The notes under the pieces: generated by a model | What the model was told of the DNA's origin: nothing | The model's input: the letters and a program-made list of their open reading frames with translations, nothing else | Database searches by the model: none | Source: Desulfoarculaceae bacterium | GTDB lineage: Bacteria; Desulfobacterota; Desulfobulbia; Desulfobulbales; Desulfocapsaceae | Direction of reading: 5' to 3' | DNA length: 64,000 bases | Assembly: GCA_019429465.1 (NCBI GenBank) | Contig: JAHYIV010000005.1 | Span: forward strand, 62,001 to 126,000 | Translations under genes and position numbers: made by a program | Shown: positions 3,561 through 27,520 of the stretch, piece by piece | Layout: the number at the start of each line of letters is the position of its first letter | How positions within the stretch are numbered: the stretch's first letter is position 1

Positions 3561-4007
3561 TCATTGCACAATTTGTGCTTTCATATATTCGTAGACAACA
3601 TTTTTGCGCACCCCGCGATCAGTGCGGGCAACAGTGACGACCACTCGCTTGGTCGCGGGCATCGGCTCGTCAACGGCCACATTCCAGTAAATTGCATAAC
3701 CATCAGGTCCGGGGGCGCAACCATCCGCCATGGCGGTACACACCGTTGGAGGGCAACATTGGCTATCCTGCAGACCAGCAAGGCCGTCACCATCAGTATC
3801 AACCAACTGATCGTAATTCATGGCGAAGATATTTTCGACCTCATTCGCCCCGGCTGTGGCGGCAGTGGTGATCTGGTTGGCAGTACTGTTACCCTGAATG
3901 GAAGTGATTTGCATGGAGTACATTGACATAATGCCGATGGTAAGGATAACCATGGCTACCAGGGCCTCAATCAGGGTAAATCCATTTTCATTCTTTCTGA
4001 TTTTCAT
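3561..4007 (-). CDS. pilV: PilV-like minor pilin
   Basis: The chosen ATG (4007) gives MKIRKNENG followed by FTLIEALVAMVILTIGIMSM: leader cleavage after Gly9, Phe at +1 and Glu at +5. The frame stays open 9 codons further upstream, but that would overlap the pilW end and add a non-leader sequence. The ATG lies 2 bp after the pilW stop, indicating coupled translation. The mature domain holds a Cys-rich loop (QCCPPTVCTAMADGC) and is about 140 residues, a normal size for PilV/type IV pilus modification proteins. Role: minor pilin in initiation or adhesion. Confidence 0.85.
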   Translation of the reverse strand: MKIRKNENGFTLIEALVAMVILTIGIMSMYSMQITSIQGNSTANQITTAATAGANEVENIFAMNYDQLVDTDGDGLAGLQDSQCCPPTVCTAMADGCAPGPDGYAIYWNVAVDEPMPATKRVVVTVARTDRGVRKNVVYEYMKAQIVQ

Positions 4008-4009
4008 AG

Positions 4010-4711
4010 CTATTCCAGTCCAAGGTTTCTGCATTGAATGGAGGTGATCAGCAACCGGCGGCGGAAGTTGTCGTTATAGGGCCCCCAGTTGTTAGTAGCA
4101 CCGGATGCGGGAGTATATGTCATGGTGTTGGCGAAGGCCCGGTCTGGCTTGGATGCCCTGGCCAGGATAGAGATTTGAACAGAGCGGACATTCGCCGGAG
4201 TGGTTGTTGCAACATTAGCGGCGTCGAGGTAGCGGAATTCAATAGCTTGAATATCTTCAGCAATTGCTTGATACCCGCCAGCGCCACCTGTTTGTCTGCC
4301 CAATGGTGACGCTTCAGGAACTCCATTGCTGACAGTATCTGGAATCCCATTTCTATCCGCATCTACTGCTGCTGCTGAAAAACCAAAATCAATGATTTCT
4401 CCAGCATCTGTAGTGTCTCCATCACCATTGGTATCTTGAGTAAAACTTATTTGTCCCACTAGCGCCGTAGTAATTCCTGCACCTGCGCCACCGGTAGGGT
4501 TGTATCCGGCCATCCTGATCTCGCGCGTCATGATATCCATGGCTGCCCTGATATTCTGTTGCATTTCCGCGACCTGTTCTTGCGCAAGATAGGTTCGTTG
4601 CTGCGAAATATAGGCAGAATAAATAGCGGCAACGATAATTCCAGAAACCGCCATGGTCAACATGAGTTCAACTAAAGTAAACCCATAAGAATTCTTAGAC
4701 AAATTATTCAT
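4010..4711 (-). CDS. pilW: PilW-like minor pilin
   Basis: Starting at the ATG at 4711 the product is MNNLSKNSYG then FTLVELMLTMAVSGIIVAA, a standard prepilin leader with Gly10 and mature Glu5. A longer version starting at 4750 would overlap the upstream gene and precede the leader with unrelated residues. The 233-residue length and the motif AAMDIMTREIRMAGYNP shortly after the N-terminal helix are typical of PilW. It is 20 bp downstream of fimT and 2 bp upstream of pilV. Confidence 0.87.
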   Translation of the reverse strand: MNNLSKNSYGFTLVELMLTMAVSGIIVAAIYSAYISQQRTYLAQEQVAEMQQNIRAAMDIMTREIRMAGYNPTGGAGAGITTALVGQISFTQDTNGDGDTTDAGEIIDFGFSAAAVDADRNGIPDTVSNGVPEASPLGRQTGGAGGYQAIAEDIQAIEFRYLDAANVATTTPANVRSVQISILARASKPDRAFANTMTYTPASGATNNWGPYNDNFRRRLLITSIQCRNLGLE

Positions 4712-4730
4712 AGTGTAGCAATCCATATCA

Positions 4731-5186
4731 TTATTGTATTTTGATGCCACCGGCTATTGTCTGAGTAATTTTATACGTTTTACTGCTTTGAGGGTGAGTT
4801 AACATTATACTTCCTGTAGCTCCAGACGCTGTGCCTCTTGAAGAGAAACCGACAGGAAAATCACTTGAAGTTGAAAGGCACACATCCTTAGCCATTGAGA
4901 TATCAATAATTGTACCTGTACTGTTTGTAAATTTGTAAGCTCCGCCCACACAAGGGGTTCCAGTACCACTTGTGAAAGTCAACGAAGTTGTAGTGTTCGT
5001 TTTAATAGCTTCCATTTTAGCCCGCATCATATCGCTAAAAACATCCCGCGCAGCCGCCTTCAACCGGATGTTCGGCAACCAGGTCGAGATACTTGGAACA
5101 GCAATAGCAGACAAAATACCAATAATAGCCACCACAATCATCACTTCAACCAGCGTAAAACCCTTTTGTTTTATTTCGCTTTTCAT
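4731..5186 (-). CDS. fimT: GspH/FimT-like pseudopilin
   Basis: First gene of the minor pilin operon. The ATG at 5186 gives MKSEIKQKG then FTLVEVMIVVAIIGILSAI: Gly9 leader and Glu at +5. The helix is followed by AVPSISTWLPNIRLKAAARDVFSDMMRAKMEAI, cut into the pattern typical of FimT/GspH proteins (R.L....R.....L..AR..A). The length of 151 residues fits. The region upstream is about 800 bp of noncoding DNA, so the operon promoter should lie between 5187 and about 5400; I see no convincing -35/-10 pair. Confidence 0.85.
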   Translation of the reverse strand: MKSEIKQKGFTLVEVMIVVAIIGILSAIAVPSISTWLPNIRLKAAARDVFSDMMRAKMEAIKTNTTTSLTFTSGTGTPCVGGAYKFTNSTGTIIDISMAKDVCLSTSSDFPVGFSSRGTASGATGSIMLTHPQSSKTYKITQTIAGGIKIQ

Positions 5187-5982
5187 AAACACCGCTCGCA
5201 GACTGTTTGAAAGTTCTTGATCAAGCACATCTCTCGTCCTCATACCCAATGACTAGCAAAAATCAAGCCACGAGTACATCCTTATCACTCATCAAATAAT
5301 CGATATGTTTTCATGTGGTTATAATCACACATCCGAAAAGGGGTCATTTATTAACAGCACACGCTCTATTAAAAAATTTAACAGAATAGGCCATAAAAGA
5401 AAATTTCTTTATATCTTTAAACCCAAGATTGATCCTGGCAAAAAGAGTGGGCTTATCTGGTGGAGGGAGGGGGGATTGAAAAGATAGTCGTCGAGATCCT
5501 GAAAAATGACTTCAGCCGGATCGTCACCGTCGACCATGTCACCCAGGCCCGTGATGTCCCTTGCCCCTTTTCGCCGCCACCCGCCGCCCGTCACTGCGAG
5601 GCGCGCAGCAAGGTCGCAGTCCAGAGGTGTGGAGCCACGGTCACTAAGACCTCCTGTGTTACTTCACCGTCGTTCGCACTAACGGGCAGGGTTTTCTGGA
5701 TTGCTTCACTGCCGCTCGCAAAGACGATGTCCCAGAAACGGGGTCAGGCCTCTACATTGGCAAGTAGCTCTGAAGTAAAAAAAGAGGAAAAATTTATTTT
5801 TTAAGAATCGCCCACTCTCTCAGTTACCCTCCGCTTCAGCGTCCCGACCGCATGAAAAAGGTCGAAGCCGGGCATCCCGCTGGAAATAAAAAAAATATAG
5901 GAACGAGCCGGTAGCGTCGCCCCTACGTGGTAATATTGTGGCTGCGCGGGAGGAGAGGAACCGGAAGGATGGCTGTCAAGAA
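5187..5982. other. Noncoding stretch upstream of the pilin operon
   Basis: About 800 bp without a convincing gene. Short open frames on both strands lack ribosome sites and recognisable motifs. The middle (5590-5725) holds a degenerate palindromic repeat listed separately. The part at 5880-5945 is a low-complexity remnant (a poly-A tract followed by GAGCCGGTAGCGTCGCCCCT) that looks like another degraded intergenic repeat. The operon promoter for the pilins is expected at the left end but is not obvious. Confidence 0.6.
5590..5725. repeat. Degenerate palindromic intergenic repeat
   Basis: The left arm (5590-5623) begins GTCACTGCGAGGCGCGCAGC. The right arm (5697-5725) begins TGGATTGCTTCACTGCCGCT. 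They are imperfect reverse complements. A second, more diverged right-arm copy lies at 5657-5686 (TGTGTTACTTCACCGTCGTT). The sequence matches the widespread bacterial repeat whose translations read like 'HCEARS.VA' and 'DCF...RKDD'. Probably a non-autonomous mobile or REP-like remnant. Confidence 0.6.
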
Positions 5983-6654
5983 TCAGGGCAACAGGCCGAA
6001 ATCCCAACCCATTTCAATGGCCAACCCCTGCGCAAGCAGCATGCTTGACCGGGAGAAATGAGATCCTGCGTCTTCACCCTGATCCCTTATGGCCGCTGCC
6101 AAGGGACTTGCCGCCTCGACAATAGACTTCATTACCAGCGGCGCCTCTTCTGTGGAATCCTGCCTGTTTACCCCATCGCAAAACCTGGCAGGCGAAGAGA
6201 CATAATGGACTCGACAGACGATCGGCCTCACACCATAGGCGCTGCAGGTGTCATCTACCAGCAGAGGGCAGCAGTGCTCATAGGTGCTGGAAAGATCTGT
6301 CTGTTCAGAAATGACCGCCGCCGGCCTGCCCGGCCTGGAATTGTCCCATTGATGCCATTGCTGCGTTCGCATCCGCAGGGCGTTTATCTGCTCTGCTGAA
6401 AATTCCCGCCTGACATACATTGCCAGGGTGCTGGCCTCTGCAATACTGACCATGATATGATAGCGGCAGCAATAACAACAGCCGGCTTTACAACTGGGGA
6501 TGATCCCCTCTTCGCTGCGCAATCGCTCCAGCTCACCGGCAACTGCTTGATCCACCAACGAATAGACAGCATGGACCAGCTTTTCTAGCGGGGCAAGCGG
6601 GATACCGGCGCCACCTTCCTCAGGGGTCATACCGAAACTGCACTTCTCAATCAA
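5983..6654 (-). CDS. YkgJ-family cysteine cluster protein
   Basis: A 223-residue protein with the family's two cysteine groups: CKAGCCYCCRYH near residue 55 and CCPLLVDDTCSAYGVRPIVC near residue 130, plus FCDG later. The family (zinc/iron-chelating domain, UPF0153) is thought to bind a metal or Fe-S cluster; no reaction is established. The frame opens with TTG at 6654, preceded by AAGGA four bases away; an ATG at 6630 is the alternative start. A second, only distantly similar family member sits at 53223-53948. It is 150 bp downstream of the Mut7-C gene, so it may or may not share a transcript. Confidence 0.8.
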   Translation of the reverse strand: MIEKCSFGMTPEEGGAGIPLAPLEKLVHAVYSLVDQAVAGELERLRSEEGIIPSCKAGCCYCCRYHIMVSIAEASTLAMYVRREFSAEQINALRMRTQQWHQWDNSRPGRPAAVISEQTDLSSTYEHCCPLLVDDTCSAYGVRPIVCRVHYVSSPARFCDGVNRQDSTEEAPLVMKSIVEAASPLAAAIRDQGEDAGSHFSRSSMLLAQGLAIEMGWDFGLLP

Positions 6655-6811
6655 ACGGTTCCTTCTCCTTGTTTCAATAAAAACTGCATGGATGCAATAA
6701 TCAGACGGGCACCATACTTCAACACGCCTGGAGGTACCATACTTAAATATGTCTTATGAGGAAGCCGGCCCCTTAATTCCCTTGGCGGACTCAACTGCAA
6801 AGTGCAACACT

Positions 6812-20879: not shown

Positions 20880-20881
20880 AA

Positions 20882-20932
20882 TTGTCTCATATGTGCAAGA
20901 GCAAGCTGACCCCTTTTGCACATATGAGACAA
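20882..20932 (+). terminator. Perfect 17-bp-stem hairpin after the aminotransferase gene
   Basis: TTGTCTCATATGTGCAA (20882-20898) and its exact reverse complement (20916-20932) flank a 17-base loop, 2 bp after the stop codon. Probable transcription end, though no long T-run follows; it also separates the DGR from the plus-strand genes. Confidence 0.55.
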
Positions 20933-21060
20933 CGTGGTTTGTACTGAATATTGCCAATTGATTCCCGATAATTTCCTTTTTATTTTACAACGCATTGTCC
21001 TGCAAAATGAATGTGGCTTGGAGAATATGGGGGAGTAAGTGTCCCTGATTATTCGGCACA

Positions 21061-21096
21061 CAAAAAGACAAATAATCAAAGCGCCAAATAATCGAC
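21061..21096 (-). promoter_or_regulatory. VR-specific downstream block, copy 1
   Basis: 36 bp immediately downstream of VR1 in transcription order, 33 of 36 identical to 23937-23972 after VR2 and absent after TR. It contains AAATAATC-AAAGCGCC-AAATAATC, a spaced direct repeat. In studied DGRs, target recognition needs the end of the VR and sometimes structured DNA just downstream; this block is a candidate for that. Confidence 0.55.
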
Positions 21097-21235
21097 TCAC
21101 TGTCCGCCGCGAACACACCGAACATAGTAGCCGAGCGACTTATGGCTGTAGTAGACGTAGCCATTGTAGAAATAGACAACCCACGCGAAATCAGGATAGA
21201 GCGCGTAAGTAGTAGACGACCAGTAAAAGGACGCA
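21097..21235 (-). repeat. DGR variable region VR1
   Basis: 139 bp aligned without gaps to TR 23184-23322. In the 17 codons that are AAC or AAT in TR there are 22 substitutions, all at TR adenines in codon positions 1 and 2. Elsewhere the core is identical apart from the A-to-C change in the last sense codon. The upstream boundary is sharp: similarity stops at GACGCA (21230-21235). The end coincides with the stop codon of target 1. Confidence 0.95.
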
Positions 21236-21531
21236 CTTGTGCCGGTGAAAATCGGGTCAATGGCTGGAGACCACCGGTCATCGTCGGTGATCGATTCCAG
21301 TTCCTTGACATTGGGCAGCCGCCAGTCGCTCTGATTGGTCAGGGTCAGACCTTCACAGTAGGCGATGGCCGCTTCCCAGGTTCTGACCTGGCCGTCATCC
21401 TGCTGCTGCCATACCAGGCCCGTACGCTGATCGGTCACCGCGCCATTACTGGCCGCATACGGACCGGCCCAGACTGGGGGCGCCAGCAGCAGGCCGCCCA
21501 TAAGCATCCATAACACCCTGTTTCCCTTCAT
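21097..21531 (-). CDS. DGR target protein 1, secreted DUF1566/C-type-lectin-like variable protein
   Basis: A 144-residue protein. Signal peptide about residues 1-22 (MKGNRVLWMLMGGLLLAPPV, then WAG). The rest is a DUF1566 (Lcl C-terminal-like) fold: TDQRTGLVWQQQDDG, SDWRLPNVKELESI, FYWSSTTYA and YYVRCVRGG at the end. Residues 99-144 are encoded by VR1. The ATG lies 1 bp after the RT stop (TGAGATG) with GGAGG upstream, so it is coupled to the RT. The variable positions are Tyr-rich (9 of 17). It is probably exported and displays a diversified ligand-binding surface. Confidence 0.9.
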   Translation of the reverse strand: MKGNRVLWMLMGGLLLAPPVWAGPYAASNGAVTDQRTGLVWQQQDDGQVRTWEAAIAYCEGLTLTNQSDWRLPNVKELESITDDDRWSPAIDPIFTGTSASFYWSSTTYALYPDFAWVVYFYNGYVYYSHKSLGYYVRCVRGGQ

Positions 21532-21532
21532 C

Positions 21533-23212
21533 TCACCCCTCCACAAATGTCAATTTTTCTGTCACCAGCCGCCGTTTCAAACCGGCGGCAGAGTAGCCCT
21601 GTTCGGCGATCACCACATACGAAAGCCCCAGGTGCCGCGCTTTATCCTTGAACCTCTTCAACATCCGCAATGGAAATCCGCACTGCGAAACACCAGGCCA
21701 GCGGCCTTTACGCAGGGCCAAACCAAATACCCGGCTGGCAATGTGCGCCTGGCGGCCAAAAAACTCGATAAACCGTCCCACCTGAAAAAAGATACAGACC
21801 CACGGCTTCCCGCCTGCAACGGGTGGAAGATCTCCGCACCCTCCGGCATCCGTGCGCCGCATGGGAACCAGAGGGAAGACTAGCCCCCCTCCTTGGTTAA
21901 GGAGGGGCTGGGGGTGGTTTGCCGGGCTCCTCTCCTGCGCTGGAGGCGGCGCACCCCGCCCAAACCGTTGCCAGGCCCATTGGTACTGCCGGCGCAATGA
22001 TTTTGGCTGCTGCCGTGGCTCATACTCAGGCCGGAGCAGGCCATCCTGCTGAAGGACGAAGATATCCTTGAGCCAGGCATGTTTTTCCCACAGGCCGTCA
22101 ACCAGTCGCCGCGAGTCGGCATGAACAAAGTGGCCGAGATACGAGGCCAGGGTCTGCCGGAGCGCCGTCACCGTCTCCGGTCGCAGATGGAGCTGTACAT
22201 AGCGGCGGCGTCCCACTGCGCCCTCCACCACCATCTTCGCCTTGAAGGTTGCGAGTTTGCCGTGCAGATTGCCAAGCACCCGCTTACGGACCAGAATATA
22301 GTCGGGACGGACGATGTAACCGAGAAAATCAGCGCCTTCACCCACCCGCTTGAGGCAGGAATTCTGCTTGACCTGTAATTGCAGCCGTGCATCCAGAAAA
22401 GCCTCGATCTCGGCCTCCATCGCCACCAGGGCCTCCTTCGACTCGTGGAGCAAAATGAAATCATCCACATAACGGAGATAATAGTGACACTTCAAGGTGT
22501 GCTTGACGAACTGATCCAGCTCGTTGAGGTAGACATTGGCGAAAAATTGCGAGGTCAGATTGCCGATAGGCAAGCCCTTGCCGACCGGGACCTGAAACAA
22601 CGACTTATGAGGCGGGATCTGGGCCAAAAGCCCTGGCGCGCCCTTATAGGCGTAATTTTCCGTACAGTCACTTTCAATGATGACACGGGCCAAAGCCAGG
22701 AGATCGCCATCGGTGATGTGGCGCTCGATCATGGCCAGCAGTCGAACCCGGTCGATACTCATGAAGAAACTTCGGATATCAAGCTGCATAAACCAGGCCG
22801 CCCGGCGGCCGCTGTTTGAAACTCTGTTCATGAAGGATTGCAGGCGGCGCCAGGCAGCATGGGTCCCCTTATTCAACCTGCAGGCATAAGAATCATGAAT
22901 AAACTTCGGTTCAAAGATGACCTCCAGGCGGGGGACAAGCAGGTGATGCACCACCCGGTCCCGAAAATCGGCGGCAAAGATCTCCCTGAGCTTGGGGGCG
23001 CAGGTAACAAAGCAGACAGAGCGCGATGGTCTGTAGGAACCATCAGTCAGGGTCTCGCTCAAGGTTCGGAGGTTTTCCAACAGATCAACCTCAAACTTGA
23101 GCGCGTTGACGGTATTCCTCTTTCGCTTCCGGCAGGCCAGATAGGCCTCGTACAGCGACCGGAAGGAAAATAGACCGCCCTGATCACTTTCCGCCGCGAA
23201 CACACCGAACAT
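21533..23212 (-). CDS. DGR reverse transcriptase fused to a MutS domain I-like module
   Basis: A 559-residue product from the ATG at 23212, which lies inside TR. RT: FRDRVVHHLLVPRLE near residue 83, HDSYACR at 106, QLDIRSFF at 143, IGNLTSQ at 216-222 (the DGR-type [IVL]GxxxSQ signature) and the catalytic YVDD at 248-251. Residues about 425-450 are a Pro/Gly-rich linker encoded by a palindromic repeat. Residues about 468-555 (VCIFFQVGRFIEFF, then AHIASRVFGLALRKG, GFP..MLKRFKDKARHLGLSY and VVIAEQ) resemble the mismatch-reading domain I of MutS, including Phe-x-Glu at F481/E483. The start is not certain: no ribosome site precedes it. It copies TR RNA into mutagenised cDNA. Confidence 0.92.
   Translation of the reverse strand: MFGVFAAESDQGGLFSFRSLYEAYLACRKRKRNTVNALKFEVDLLENLRTLSETLTDGSYRPSRSVCFVTCAPKLREIFAADFRDRVVHHLLVPRLEVIFEPKFIHDSYACRLNKGTHAAWRRLQSFMNRVSNSGRRAAWFMQLDIRSFFMSIDRVRLLAMIERHITDGDLLALARVIIESDCTENYAYKGAPGLLAQIPPHKSLFQVPVGKGLPIGNLTSQFFANVYLNELDQFVKHTLKCHYYLRYVDDFILLHESKEALVAMEAEIEAFLDARLQLQVKQNSCLKRVGEGADFLGYIVRPDYILVRKRVLGNLHGKLATFKAKMVVEGAVGRRRYVQLHLRPETVTALRQTLASYLGHFVHADSRRLVDGLWEKHAWLKDIFVLQQDGLLRPEYEPRQQPKSLRRQYQWAWQRFGRGAPPPAQERSPANHPQPLLNQGGGLVFPLVPMRRTDAGGCGDLPPVAGGKPWVCIFFQVGRFIEFFGRQAHIASRVFGLALRKGRWPGVSQCGFPLRMLKRFKDKARHLGLSYVVIAEQGYSAAGLKRRLVTEKLTFVEG
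21883..21908. repeat. Palindromic repeat inside the RT-MutS linker
   Basis: GCCCCCCTCC TTGGTTAA GGAGGGGC, a common bacterial intergenic palindrome, here in frame in the RT gene. It encodes PLLNQGGG, so the linker between RT and MutS-like parts appears to have been built or extended by an inserted REP-like sequence. Confidence 0.6.
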
Positions 23213-23324
23213 AGTTGTTGTTCGACTTATTGTTGTTGTTGACGTTGCCATTGTTGAAATTGACATTCCACGCGTTATCAGGATTGTTCGCGTTAGTAGT
23301 AGACGACCAGTAATTGGACGCAAT
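23184..23324 (-). repeat. DGR template repeat TR
   Basis: 141 bp, matched by VR1 (21097-21235) and VR2 (23973-24113). On the minus strand it has 17 AAC/AAT codons (as in NVNFNNGNVNNNN in translation), the hallmark of an adenine-mutagenesis template: AAY codons can become 15 amino acids and never a stop. The 3' end is GC-rich and almost invariant among the three copies, as expected of IMH/IMH*; TR has AAG where both VRs have CAG, and VR2 has one G-to-T change there. Confidence 0.95.
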
Positions 23325-23384
23325 CACCCGTTCACTTGACGGCCTTTCAGCCCAGCAGACACCGATCCCTTGCGGGTACGACAT
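23184..23384 (-). CDS. Small open frame carrying the TR
   Basis: 66 codons from an ATG at 23384 with a strong GAGGAG six bases upstream, running through TR in the same frame as the target genes and ending at the same type of stop. The first 20 residues (MSYPQGIGVCWAERPSSERV) do not resemble either target upstream of its VR. It may be a vestigial third target, a leader that keeps TR RNA translated, or coincidence. No signal peptide or domain besides the truncated lectin end. Confidence 0.4.
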   Translation of the reverse strand: MSYPQGIGVCWAERPSSERVIASNYWSSTTNANNPDNAWNVNFNNGNVNNNNKSNNNYVRCVRGGK

Positions 23385-23560
23385 CGTGTTCTCCTCATGC
23401 CCGGCATACTCCTGCCAGCCGGGCGGAGCGGGCGCACAGTGATCTTCGACACACTCCCCGGTGCTTGTGAGACATCAGGGATTCCGGCCGTTTCCTTCAA
23501 TCTTGGCTCTACTCGCCATCCACGCTCTGTCTGCTTTTCTCTTTGGGTGGGGCATTTCTC

Positions 23561-23914
23561 CTACCCCTTTCCACTTTGACTTCTTAACCACCCCTCACTC
23601 TGGCGGCTGATGTCAACGGCCAGCAGGGAGGCCTGCTGGAACTCCTTGAAATTGGTGAAGGCCTTCACTTCCTTGGCCAGCACAATCAAAATCTTCATCT
23701 CCTCACTGCTATCCCGCAATTCAGTCAAAATGGCGGTCTTATCCCGCCGGGAATTAGCCTTGATCACCAGGCCAACCAGCCGCCGCGACAAGTGCCGCAG
23801 GTCGGCTCCCAGGGCATACTTGTGATATCTGGCAAAATTCCGCACCATGGATTCGACAAAAACGGCAAGCTCCATAGTCCTCCGGTCGATGGGCAGATTC
23901 TCATAATAGGCCAT
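23561..23914 (-). CDS. avd: DGR accessory variability determinant (Avd-like four-helix protein)
   Basis: 117 residues, predicted all-helical and basic, of the four-helix-bundle family (YENLPIDRRTMELAVFVESM, then YALGADLRHLSRRLVGLVIK and SSEEMKILIVLAKEVKAF). Avd forms a pentameric barrel that binds nucleic acid and the RT and is required for retrohoming in studied DGRs. GAGG lies upstream of the ATG. It sits between VR2 and TR, the usual place. Confidence 0.88.
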   Translation of the reverse strand: MAYYENLPIDRRTMELAVFVESMVRNFARYHKYALGADLRHLSRRLVGLVIKANSRRDKTAILTELRDSSEEMKILIVLAKEVKAFTNFKEFQQASLLAVDISRQSEGWLRSQSGKG

Positions 23915-23936
23915 GACCTTTCCTCTTTACGTCAAT

Positions 23937-23972
23937 CAAAAAAATAAATAATCAAAGCGCCAAATAACCGAC
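23937..23972 (-). promoter_or_regulatory. VR-specific downstream block, copy 2
   Basis: 36 bp following VR2, 33 of 36 identical to the block after VR1. It contains AAATAATC-AAAGCGCC-AAATAACC. It lies between the stop of target 2 and the Avd ribosome site. Confidence 0.55.
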
Positions 23973-24113
23973 TCACTGTCCGCCGCGAACACAACGAACA
24001 TAGAAGCTGTACGACTTAGCGCCGTTGTAGACGCCGCCATCGTCGAAATCGACAAGCCACGCGCCATCAGGATCGAGCGCGAAAGTAGTAGACGACCAGT
24101 AATCGGACGCAAT
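23973..24113 (-). repeat. DGR variable region VR2
   Basis: 141 bp aligned without gaps to TR. The 17 AAY codons of TR carry 24 substitutions here, all at adenines. One extra difference in the 3' constant part (G to T on the coding strand) is not adenine-based. The encoded variable residues are Asp/Gly-rich (six Asp, three Gly), unlike Tyr-rich VR1. It ends at the stop codon of target 2. Confidence 0.95.
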
Positions 24114-26000
24114 TGTACCGAAAATCGGGTTACTACTGGAGGCATAACGGCCGTAGTCAACGATGCCAGTCAACTCCTTTTTGGTCGGCAGCCGCCAGTC
24201 GGAATAGCCGCCGGTGGTCTGTGCCCCGCACACATCCTGCGTCGTCGGGTTGTACGATGCATCATAGACCCCGGCCGCCTGGTACCAGTTGTAATAAGAA
24301 TTCCCGCCGGCATTGTCCTGCTGCCACATGAAGCCGGTGACATTGTCCGACACCGTGCCGTTATTGTTATCGGTATAGGACGGCGGGTTGATGGTATAGT
24401 CCGAGTCCTCGCCAAAGGTGTCGGTGTAGGAGTGGGTCTGACCGGTGTCGGGCAAGCGGCCGACTGCAGGAGTGATGCTTGCCACCGTCAGATAGAAATT
24501 AAGATAGCTCTGATCGGAATAGACATAATAGGCAGGGTTGGTGTACGTAGCATAACCAGGTTTAGAAACGGAAAGTGGATACGTGCCGGGGGGGATACCG
24601 GCGATGGAAAATTCCCCGATGCTACTGGCGATGCTACTGGAAGTCGCTGTATACCCGGCAATCGAGACCGTCGCCCCGGATAGAGCCGGCCCGGTGTCGC
24701 TGTCCGAATGGATGGTGCCGCGCAGGGCATACGTGACCGATGGCTGGGTCAGGTAGAAATTAAGGTTGCTCTCATCGGAACCGACAGAATACGGGTTGGT
24801 GTCGGTATTGTAACCAGGTTTAGAAATGGACAGTGCATACGAGCCGGAAGGAATACCACTGATTGAGAATGTTCCGAAGAAGCTGGAGATTGCGGTCTTG
24901 CCGGCAATCGAGACCGTCGCTCCTGACAACACCGGCCCGGTGTCGCTGTCGGAGTGAATGATGCCGCTCAGCGAATAGGTTGTCTCCCCCTGATTTGCCA
25001 ACAGCAAAGAATTCGCGGCAGCATAGACAAAGTCCTCAAATCTGTCCCGGAATCTGTTCTTCCCTGAAGTAAAAGACACACCTTGGGGATCATTACAGGT
25101 CACGGTCGCTGTGGAAAGATAGGTGTTAATAAAATTGTGCCCCGTGGGTTCCGTTAGCTGAGCGTCTACGCAAGTTGGCGTATCTATGATGAAGTTGCAA
25201 GTGCCTCGACATACCGGAGTGTCCCGCCACCAGCTACCCAAGTCGGTTGGCCAAGCTAAACTATTTCCGGTCGTTGGCAGGGTCAACAAGCCAGGAAAGA
25301 GCGCACGGTCAGTATTGTGAGTAAAGTTAAGATTATTTACTGAAATCTCCGAGGTGTTAGCTACATTAACCACGCGAATCATCTTGGTGGTTTCGGTACC
25401 ATATTTACTAGCAATCTTTGCATAAGCAAGGTTGGCCAGCAAATTTCCCTCTGAGTGCGCTACAACTACGGCTGATCCAAGACTTTCAATGCCCGAAGCT
25501 AAATTATTAGCAACGTCTTGAGTAGCCTTCATGTTTGCATCGGAAGTTTTATGTTCATATTCTTGATAGTTAGTGAGAACCCCGGGAGTCATGTCATCAA
25601 GGTAGATGACAACTTTCTTGGCAATATCTTTATCAATCTCTCTGTCGACGGTGAACCCCACAGATATATTTGCCAAATCATCGCGGTAGAATTCTTCTGC
25701 GGTTTTAAGAAGGAACAATTCCCTGTTATCTTGAACACTGTCTCGACCTGCAGTCGAACCAGTATAACCAATGGGGTTATACAACCCTACAACCTTGAAA
25801 GATATTTTGTTCCCAGTATGGTTTACAGATTTAGTAAGTAGTCCATTGAGAGCGTTCAGAGAATCCTGGAATTTTGGTCTAGTATTTTGGATGCCATTCA
25901 CATAGATAACATTTACATCAGCAGCCCCCGCATCGAAAGCATAAGCTAACAAGGTCAACAACAGGGCAAATACTACCCGAAAATTTGAGAAATGTTTCAT
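23973..26000 (-). CDS. DGR target protein 2: secreted alpha/beta-hydrolase-like plus variable lectin
   Basis: 675 residues. Signal peptide about 1-29. Residues 30-335 look like an alpha/beta hydrolase: NVIYVNGIQNT at the first strand, nucleophile elbow AHSEGN at 181-186 (Ser183) and a candidate His288 in TGHNFINTYL. Residues 341-418 and 423-505 are two related beta-sandwich repeats of the carboxypeptidase-regulatory type (HSDSDTGP.LSGATVSIAG). Residues about 515-675 are a DUF1566 C-type-lectin-like domain; residues 629-675 come from VR2. The start overlaps the upstream lipoprotein stop as ATGA. Lipase or esterase activity is inference from the elbow only. Confidence 0.88.
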   Translation of the reverse strand: MKHFSNFRVVFALLLTLLAYAFDAGAADVNVIYVNGIQNTRPKFQDSLNALNGLLTKSVNHTGNKISFKVVGLYNPIGYTGSTAGRDSVQDNRELFLLKTAEEFYRDDLANISVGFTVDREIDKDIAKKVVIYLDDMTPGVLTNYQEYEHKTSDANMKATQDVANNLASGIESLGSAVVVAHSEGNLLANLAYAKIASKYGTETTKMIRVVNVANTSEISVNNLNFTHNTDRALFPGLLTLPTTGNSLAWPTDLGSWWRDTPVCRGTCNFIIDTPTCVDAQLTEPTGHNFINTYLSTATVTCNDPQGVSFTSGKNRFRDRFEDFVYAAANSLLLANQGETTYSLSGIIHSDSDTGPVLSGATVSIAGKTAISSFFGTFSISGIPSGSYALSISKPGYNTDTNPYSVGSDESNLNFYLTQPSVTYALRGTIHSDSDTGPALSGATVSIAGYTATSSSIASSIGEFSIAGIPPGTYPLSVSKPGYATYTNPAYYVYSDQSYLNFYLTVASITPAVGRLPDTGQTHSYTDTFGEDSDYTINPPSYTDNNNGTVSDNVTGFMWQQDNAGGNSYYNWYQAAGVYDASYNPTTQDVCGAQTTGGYSDWRLPTKKELTGIVDYGRYASSSNPIFGTIASDYWSSTTFALDPDGAWLVDFDDGGVYNGAKSYSFYVRCVRGGQ

Positions 26001-26737
26001 TGTTGGCACCCCTCGCTACTGAAAACAGCACCTGCAAAAGCATTAGCATAGGCATTACACCGCTCCGGGGTGTCTAAGAGCGCATCAGAAATTTTGCTGA
26101 GGTCGTTCAGCACTTGATCATCGCTCTCACACCGAATCTGATCAAGACTAGCGGAGATATTTTCCGGGGTGGGAGTTAGAATTGCAGCTTGCTCGGCGAT
26201 GGCATAGTTCATCGCTTTCGGATAGAAGTTTTGATCCGATCCAAATTCCGTGGCGATCATCCGCTCAACATCGTCTCGCACCCCATTGTTGTTTGCATCG
26301 ACGCCAGCCACCGTTTCCTGGTTGGCGGTTGCATCCGGTACTGGAGGTACTTTGACACCGTTAATGACTTCATCTCCATCATTAATGACATCATTGGTAC
26401 CGCCGTTAACGACTTCATCTCCATCATTAATAACATCATCGGTACCGCCGTTTACGACTTCATCTCCACCATTAATGACATCATCGGTACCGCCGTTAAC
26501 GACTTCATCTCCACCATTAATGACATCATCGGTACCGCCGTTAACGACTTCATCTCCACCATTAGTGACAGCATCGGTACCGCCGTTAACGACTTCATCT
26601 CCACCATTAGTGACAGCATCGGTACCGCCGTTTACGACTTCACCTCCACCATTATCGTCGCTGTCACCTCCACAGGCCTGCAAGGCAAACAAAAAAACAA
26701 GCACTAAGCAAAACAAAAATTTCCTAGCAGTTACCAT
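25997..26737 (-). CDS. Repeat-rich lipoprotein in the DGR operon
   Basis: 246 residues from an ATG at 26737 with AAGGAG upstream. Lipobox LQAC at the end of a hydrophobic leader (Cys22), followed by GGDSDDNGG. Residues 30-128 are about 6.6 copies of a 15-residue repeat (GGDEVVNGGTDDVIN). The C-terminal 110 residues hold a calcium-loop-like VDANNNGVRDDVE and then a helical part with two Cys. It overlaps the target 2 gene by 4 bp (ATGA), so the two products are probably made together; it might anchor or present the hydrolase/lectin at the surface. I do not recognise the family. Confidence 0.8.
   Translation of the reverse strand: MVTARKFLFCLVLVFLFALQACGGDSDDNGGGEVVNGGTDAVTNGGDEVVNGGTDAVTNGGDEVVNGGTDDVINGGDEVVNGGTDDVINGGDEVVNGGTDDVINDGDEVVNGGTNDVINDGDEVINGVKVPPVPDATANQETVAGVDANNNGVRDDVERMIATEFGSDQNFYPKAMNYAIAEQAAILTPTPENISASLDQIRCESDDQVLNDLSKISDALLDTPERCNAYANAFAGAVFSSEGCQQ
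26354..26650 (-). repeat. 45-bp tandem repeat inside the lipoprotein gene
   Basis: About 6.6 contiguous units with period 45 bp, in frame (15 residues). Units differ by a few bases, mostly conservative (Asp/Gly/Asn, Ala-Val/Asp-Val). The length could change by recombination without shifting the frame. Confidence 0.85.
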
Positions 26738-27277
26738 GCCAATCTCCTTATATTCATGACAGACCACTTCAGCTGGTTGAATTCCATAAGATCTTCCTGC
26801 AAGCCACCTCGAAAAAAAATGTGTTCTTACCTTTCCCTGGGACTTCATCACAATTTTAAACAAATAGCAAATAAAATTAGCTCCTCGCTATTTCAGGTGG
26901 GTAAGCCAAAGTTACATTTTCCGCCAAGGAGGTAGATCATGGCAATTACATTCTTAGTTGTGTCCGTCAACCACCAGCTTTAGCTTCGGCCGCCCGGATT
27001 AAGCTATTTATTGTAAGGGGGTGAGGCACCATCAGGGAACCATCCTGACAAGATATTTGATATATTCTCCGAATTTTATCCTGATCCGGCCCGACAGCTA
27101 CGAAACGCCAGCGGTTCAGGTTCAGCATATGGATTTCGGGAAGGGAGAGAGAGAAAGGAGTGAACCTGTGGAGCAAAGGTCACGGGAGTTGGGGTAATTT
27201 CTGGTGAGGGGAACCCACCAGACGGGTGATGCGGACAAAGAGGTAACAGAGCAGAGGAGGCTCAGAACTCAATAAAT
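26738..27277. other. 540 bp without a convincing gene, upstream of the DGR operon
   Basis: The DGR operon promoter should lie at 26740-26900. An orphan plus-strand ribosome site (AAGGAGG) and ATG at 26939 lead only to a 14-codon frame. A 69-codon minus-strand frame (26967-27176) shows no domain. The region may be debris of a lost gene or mobile element. Confidence 0.5.
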
Positions 27278-27520
27278 TTATTTCTGAACCTCCTTCCACT
27301 CTTTGACAAAATTACGGATATACCAATCCTCAACCTTTTTCCTGGCCCAGGGGGTTTTTCGCAGAAACACCAGACTGGACTGAATGCTTGGCTCACTGAT
27401 AAAACATTGTACCCTGATCTTCCGGCCCATTTTCTCCCAGCCATACTTCTCAAGCAGACGGACAAGAATCATCTCCAGGGTGACGCCATGCAAAGGATTA
27501 TTCGGTTGCTGATCATTCAT
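27278..27520 (-). CDS. VF530/DUF2132-family DNA-binding protein
   Basis: 80 residues matching the small VF530 family: NNPLHGVTLEMILVRLLEKY, GWEKMG, CFISEPSIQSSLVFLRKTPW and ARKKVE. The family's structure is related to small helical DNA-binding folds; cellular role unknown. It begins 7 bp after the small lysine-rich gene and 180 bp after der. Confidence 0.88.
   Translation of the reverse strand: MNDQQPNNPLHGVTLEMILVRLLEKYGWEKMGRKIRVQCFISEPSIQSSLVFLRKTPWARKKVEDWYIRNFVKEWKEVQK

Follow-up and report, generated by a model that had tools for sequence, protein, structure and literature searches.

The diversity-generating retroelement (DGR) of the Bordetella phage BPP-1 pairs a reverse transcriptase (RT) and a protein of the Avd family with adenine-specific changes between a template repeat (TR) and a variable repeat (VR), the latter at the 3′ end of the target gene, mtd. 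Two-target DGRs with DUF1566 domains are already known from bacteria, where one TR serves two VRs in paralogous C-terminal domains (in the accessible portions of PMC3521204 and PMC6642488), and multi-VR elements account for 271 of 948 DGRs in the accessible text of PMC6642488, which also reports the Lcl_C end to be C-type-lectin-like. Here, a DGR cassette is described from a 64,000-nt stretch of the chromosome of a Desulfoarculaceae bacterium (the window, to which all coordinates refer; GenBank assembly GCA_019429465.1, contig JAHYIV010000005.1, positions 62,001–126,000). The cassette shares with the BPP-1 system the RT fold, the Avd family, the adenine-specific TR-to-VR changes, and the position of the VR at the target 3′ end, but it is chromosomal, has two targets with Lcl_C domains, and encodes an RT with a C-terminal MutS domain I. 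No essential difference in layout separates it from the multi-VR DUF1566 DGRs, as far as the accessible portions of the same two papers describe them, and what makes it of interest is the RT-fused mismatch-reading domain and the comparative evidence, drawn from two genomes, for retrohoming into both targets, rather than its two-target layout. An earlier note, made from the sequence of the window without database searches, had proposed a complete two-target DGR at this locus; it did not mention that the RT ends in a MutS domain I, that the cassette was acquired by horizontal insertion, or that the genome holds another DGR.

Structure of the cassette and its substitution pattern

The window very probably contains a functional-looking DGR that would carry out mutagenic retrohoming onto two targets. 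All of the parts lie on the minus strand in the transcription order of a lipoprotein-like open reading frame (ORF), target 2 with VR2, avd, TR, RT, and target 1 with VR1, and the target-avd-TR-RT-target order of the earlier note was recovered with every part in place. The TR (23184..23324; 141 nt) has exactly the 17 AAY codons assigned to it, and VR1 (21097..21235, full register to 21237) and VR2 (23973..24113), at the 3′ ends of targets 1 and 2, both align to it without gaps. Within the AAY codons, VR1 carries 22 substitutions (15 first-base, 7 second-base, 0 third-base) and VR2 carries 24 (15, 9, and 0), every one at a template adenine and distributed over 16 of the 17 codons in each VR, reproducing the earlier counts and the observation that the third base is never changed. 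Against a baseline of 46 adenines among the 141 TR bases, 23 of 24 mismatches in the 141-nt core of VR1 (hypergeometric P = 1.0e-12) and 25 of 26 in that of VR2 (P = 4.1e-14) occur at TR adenines. Differences at non-adenine positions, which the earlier note held would count against a DGR if as frequent as those at adenines, are rare, with one per VR outside of the AAY codons (VR1 at 23323, the 5′ edge; VR2 at 23205). Both VRs also have C in place of A at 23189 (23189..23189, minus strand), in an AAG near the 3′ end of the TR, and C occurs at the equivalent position in both VRs of the related genome G071, in the in-register VR of G061, and in both VRs of G088, though the G088 TR has T there and not A. 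As relatives carry this difference at the equivalent site, it appears to be an invariant marker of the VR end, presumably of the kind named IMH/IMH*, and not a product of mutagenesis.

At the 18 adenines changed in both VRs, the same base was present in 8 (6.0 expected, p = 0.19), and VR1 and VR2 look to have been diversified independently. When 18 multi-VR sets were pooled, excluding L085 (see below), the same base was present at 115 of 232 co-changed adenines compared to 90 expected, for which selection or exchange between VRs is possible. A search of the window's own genome (2.84 Mb, 94.8% complete) found no TR-related copies beyond VR1 and VR2, with three further matches of only 18–21 bp.

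The gene content agrees with the substitution pattern, and together they uphold the proposal of a complete DGR. The avd gene (23561..23914, 117 aa), which lies between the VRs, matches Pfam bAvd above its cut-off (E = 7.7e-12) and NCBIfam DivGenRetAVD below that model's cut-off (E = 2.2e-8). The RT gene (21533..23212), adjacent to the TR, encodes both of the motifs previously noticed, IGNLTSQ (the DGR GxxxSQ motif) and YVDD, and matches Pfam RVT_1 (E = 5.3e-18). An AlphaFold2 model of the RT, based on an alignment of 34 sequences (A4, window included), has a mean pLDDT of 87 and a pTM of 0.77, and its best structural matches are the RTs of DGR ribonucleoproteins (8ub7, E = 7.8e-24), which we take to be BPP-1 RT structures. 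Both target 1 (21097..21531, 144 aa) and target 2 (23973..26000, 675 aa) have signal-peptide-like N-termini, as judged by eye, and an Lcl_C/DUF1566 domain at the C-terminus (Pfam E = 1.3e-34 and 4.9e-27), with the VRs at the ends of the Lcl_C domains, in keeping with the earlier description of both as secreted. That description also called the targets unrelated, which is true of their N-terminal parts, but the diversified C-terminal domains share 45% identity over 143 residues and are homologous, making the targets paralogous at the diversified end. Similarly, the symmetric layout emphasized in the earlier note is present but not special, as the RT is likewise flanked on either side by VRs in 14 of the 60 cellular DGR loci with a script-detected VR (80 scanned). 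One locus, from candidate division KSB1 (L085), has five detected VRs for a single TR, of which four follow the RT over ~3 kb.

The ATG of target 1 occurs one base past the RT stop and is preceded by GGAGG, from which we infer translational coupling of RT and target 1, while an ATGA overlap joins the stop of the lipoprotein-like ORF to the start of target 2; this overlap and this spacing suggest that the cassette genes share one transcript. By analogy to the BPP-1 system, the RT, with Avd, would copy TR RNA into cDNA, placing random bases opposite template adenines, and this cDNA would then replace VR1 or VR2 at the 3′ end of its target gene. Up to 17 codons would thereby be rewritten in two predicted secreted or surface-located proteins whose Lcl_C ends are C-type-lectin-like; these proteins would presumably be displayed at the cell surface and bind ligands.

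Related cassettes and local rewriting of both targets

A search of 97 genomes with the RT returned nine with matches at E ≤ 1e-20, including the window's own genome. One of these is G071, from another family of the same order, which possesses the same cassette with the same order of parts and VRs at both ends. The RT is 88% identical between the two (query residues 1–486) and the avd product 95%, and the TRs match at 135 of 141 positions. Five of the six TR differences are at non-adenine positions in the window, and there all four VRs carry the base of their own genome's TR (20/20); the sixth is T in all four VRs and thus uninformative. Because all 20 sites match the local TR, it is most likely that this TR was the source for rewriting both targets in each lineage, and the two genomes offer a natural pair of cases of parallel overwriting of two targets by one TR. 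The VRs are not fixed between these relatives, fixation being the other outcome that the earlier note had named as contrary to a DGR. Over 148 residues, the small target and its G071 counterpart share 74% identity, while for the large target the identity is 75% over the last 162 residues, with no similarity before them. The front of the large target in G061 is also dissimilar to that of the window and has a DUF4347 domain, and homology among the three large targets (G071/L193, G061/L194, and the window) begins near an LPDTGQT stretch. By these comparisons, the diversified Lcl_C/VR end of the large target is kept among relatives and the N-terminal carrier part differs. In G071 (L193, 237–900 of the reverse complement), a small gene pair, RelE/HigB-like and helix-turn-helix (HTH) by eye, adjoins the DGR.

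These comparisons also bear on the possibility that the cassette has decayed, with the VRs as fossils of past activity and no present retrohoming, which we consider improbable. Two features weigh against an active cassette. The RT open frame continues through the TR, where an ATG at 23212 is one candidate start, and the start is in doubt because the window reads CTA just past the TR where G071 has Met, such that translation of the RT might be weak; additionally, the linker between the RT and the MutS domain is of low confidence in the model (pLDDT < 50). Against decay, RT, avd, and both targets are all open frames, each VR has a single non-adenine difference, and both VRs match the present TR at all five non-adenine sites where the G071 TR differs from it. 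It is scarcely credible that the differences from the TR arose by ordinary divergence or by gene conversion between VRs, as the changed codons common to both VRs (e.g., CTC at codon 13) and the pooled excess of shared bases are set against substitutions that fall almost exclusively at adenines and sharing within the window that is not above chance.

G071 has a longer RT-MutS linker than the window and G061 has none; in the window the linker includes a palindromic repeat (~21881–21923) in frame between the RT and the MutS domain. As a marker of the donor genome this repeat was uninformative, with one copy each in the window genome and G071, both in the RT gene, and single weaker matches as well as control matches in other genomes.

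Horizontal insertion of the cassette

The RT was detected in none of the 16 congeners searched, some of which are incomplete genomes. DNA homology to congeners ends at ~20879 and restarts at 27223–27255, which delimits an inserted segment of approximately 20880..27222 (no strand assigned). In three of the five congeners fetched (G016, G014, and G004) the site is empty, with the flanking genes, an aminotransferase and an 80-aa ORF (at 27278 in the window), in conserved order and ~345–403 bases apart compared to 6.4 kb in the window. G003 has a different spacer of 1.95 kb at the site, and in G010 the 8.9 kb downstream contained no match to either of the right-hand genes. Based on the empty site and the break in homology, the cassette and the lipoprotein gene constitute one horizontal insertion of ~6.3 kb. 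Inspection by eye of the inserted ORFs of at least 80 aa revealed none resembling an integrase. A phage context was considered and rejected, as the flanks are chromosomal housekeeping-type genes syntenic with congeners. At the left border of the insertion there is an inverted repeat of ~17 bp (~20883–20935) that, by eye, is either terminator-like or a mark of insertion.

A MutS domain I fused to the RT

The C-terminus of the RT (21557..21796, minus strand; ORF residues 510–589) matches Pfam MutS_I above its cut-off (E = 1.8e-6), and all Foldseek matches of this tail at E ≤ 0.001 are MutS/MSH proteins, identifying it as MutS domain I by both homology and fold. The tail is ~90–100 residues long and Pfam finds only domain I within it; in contrast to domain I of MutS or MSH6, it sits within an RT and has no connector, lever, clamp, or ATPase. 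MSL, the name used for such proteins, stands for MutS-like, and PF01624 is MutS_I. An MSL (PF01624) accessory protein of DGRs is credited to Wu et al. 2018 in the accessible text of PMC10053308, and the likeness to it consists in a MutS domain I tied to DGRs, with the difference that the domain is here fused to the RT C-terminus. Among the titles, opening lines of abstracts, and text portions covered by the literature search, from result lists of limited length, there was no description of an RT-MutS fusion in DGRs; this does not show the fusion to be unpublished, as Wu et al. 2018, most subscription papers, and supplements lay outside the search.

Among 102 RTs selected for their similarity to that of the window, 45 were scored as having a fused tail. 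Three of these were scored as tailed on degenerate tails (L066, L106, and L025), while L068 was scored as tail-less despite having a broken tail and, separately, an MSL-like ORF, and L075, L084, and L095 were scored as tail-less though the RT match itself ends early. The tail alignment (A5) comprised 36 of the 45 tailed rows, leaving out nine with weak, cut, or degenerate tails (L025, L042, L049, L052, L054, L055, L066, L077, and L106). In these 36 tails the mismatch-reading loop, a Phe/Tyr-x-Glu stretch aligned with the GDFYE of MutS, has Gly in 36/36, an aromatic residue [FY] in 36/36, and Glu in 35/36, at a mean column identity of only 33%. Stand-alone MSL-like ORFs occur directly upstream of avd-like ORFs in L068 (383–730) and L077 (2176–2496). 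Both have lost the Glu of the Phe-x-Glu loop; the RT tail of L077 keeps it (GTYWELL) and the RT frame of L068 stops within the tail.

Possible roles of the MutS-like tail

The most likely role of the fused domain would be to bind mismatched duplex arising in cDNA synthesis or VR replacement. Replacement of a VR by cDNA with ~20 mismatches should attract mismatch repair, and a mismatch-reading domain without an ATPase could occupy the duplex. No explanation of how such cDNA evades mismatch repair was found in the accessible portions of the literature searched, and the RT-MSL fusion makes this question directly testable. That the tail also shields mismatched duplex from the host MutS is the boldest reading open to a test; it has weak comparative support and is less likely than not. 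The premise for shielding is that retron cDNA editing rose 21-fold on deletion of mutS, in a study cited in the accessible text of PMC6868368.

Tailed RTs are concentrated in hosts with mutS (44/45 tailed rows compared to 17/45 tail-less rows, Fisher p = 3.0e-10), where rows are RTs and not genomes, some genomes giving two. This count treats as present the nearly full-length mutS1-like genes of two Campylobacterota rows (L073 and L089; 298 and 289 bits, under the cut-off) and the split or under-cut-off mutS genes of G102, G131, and G146; without the L073 and L089 genes, the mutS1 count is 44/45 compared to 15/45 (Fisher p = 2.4e-11), and with mutS1 above the cut-off alone it is 34/37 tailed compared to 9/39 tail-less genomes. 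The mutS-less tail-less rows belong to few lineages (CPR, small-genome archaea, Campylobacterota, and some records named only ‘bacterium’). Reverse pairing gave six or eight tree-independent pairs, with 1–2 concordant and 0 discordant (p ≥ 0.5). A link between the tail and host mutS1 was thus considered but is not claimed, given few independent contrasts and a sample drawn by similarity to a tailed RT, and repeating the analysis without 11 doubtful rows left this conclusion unchanged.

Several results weigh against shielding. Only three tree-independent pairs are well supported (starred branches), with 0–2 concordant (p ≥ 0.5) and 0 discordant save 1 in one of 200 draws, and many tail-less DGRs reside in mutS hosts, as the 17 of 45 rows attest. 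A tail-less group of eight, mostly Campylobacterota, adjoins the tailed clade of the window (95% SH-aLRT), and three of its eight hosts have mutS, so the group does not look like a clean loss of the tail along with mutS. The base spectra of substitutions at adenines are alike with and without the tail (p = 0.82–0.99; 31 and 29 cellular loci), which speaks against a role of the tail in choosing the misincorporated base. Finally, a laboratory DGR repaired an insertion reporter independently of mutS, though the insertion is said to be no MutS substrate (accessible text of PMC12875486). A more specific form of the idea, in which a stripped-down, RT-fused MutS reader across a broad group of cellular DGRs is a built-in repair decoy that occupies the cDNA/VR heteroduplex and blocks its rejection, is unlikely and is further weakened because two Campylobacterota rows have full-length mutS-like genes.

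Two other functions for the tail were weighed. It is quite possible, while falling short of probable, that the tail is a generic nucleic-acid or Avd/RNA docking module in which mismatch reading has been lost, as domain I stands alone without the MutS clamp or ATPase, the Glu is lost in the stand-alone copies of L068 and L077, and degenerate tails occur in some RTs (L025, L066, and L106). The near-invariance of the loop at low overall identity, in an alignment from which the nine weaker tails were excluded, argues instead for retained mismatch reading. Rather doubtful is a function in reverse transcription itself, with the tail holding mismatched cDNA-TR RNA duplex and letting the RT extend past A:N mispairs. 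Such a function would fit with the fusion of the domain to the RT, with the Phe/Tyr-x-Glu kept in 35 of 36 aligned tails, and with a median fraction of TR adenines changed that is slightly higher among cellular DGRs with MSL than without (0.46 compared to 0.40, p = 0.007, uncorrected for kinship), but tail-less DGR RTs show the same base spectrum and non-adenine rate, and viral DGRs, in which no tail was detected, are higher still (median, 0.57).

Additional features of the cassette and a second DGR

Beyond the diversified end, target 2 has two CarboxypepD_reg stretches (Pfam) and a region with an AHSEGN motif that we take to be hydrolase-like, though it matched no family. The N-terminal fold of target 2 had no match in Pfam and no convincing match in the Protein Data Bank (PDB), where matches to myoglobin at E ≥ 0.18 were taken as chance, and no known RNA family reached the gathering score in the window. 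The lipoprotein-like ORF (25997..26737, minus strand), the stop of which overlaps the start of target 2, contains LQAC, presumably a lipobox, and 45-bp tandem repeats (26313–26672) resembling VVNGGTDDVINGGDE.

A second DGR was observed in the same genome (G000:C16, locus L195, ~3875–6750, minus strand). Its RT, in a frame of 515 aa, also has a MutS-like tail (GRYYELF) and is accompanied by an Avd-like ORF of 133 aa and a lipoprotein-like target of 299 aa with an Lcl_C domain. Over the 123 nt of its TR and VR, 17 of 36 adenines are changed with 0 other mismatches.

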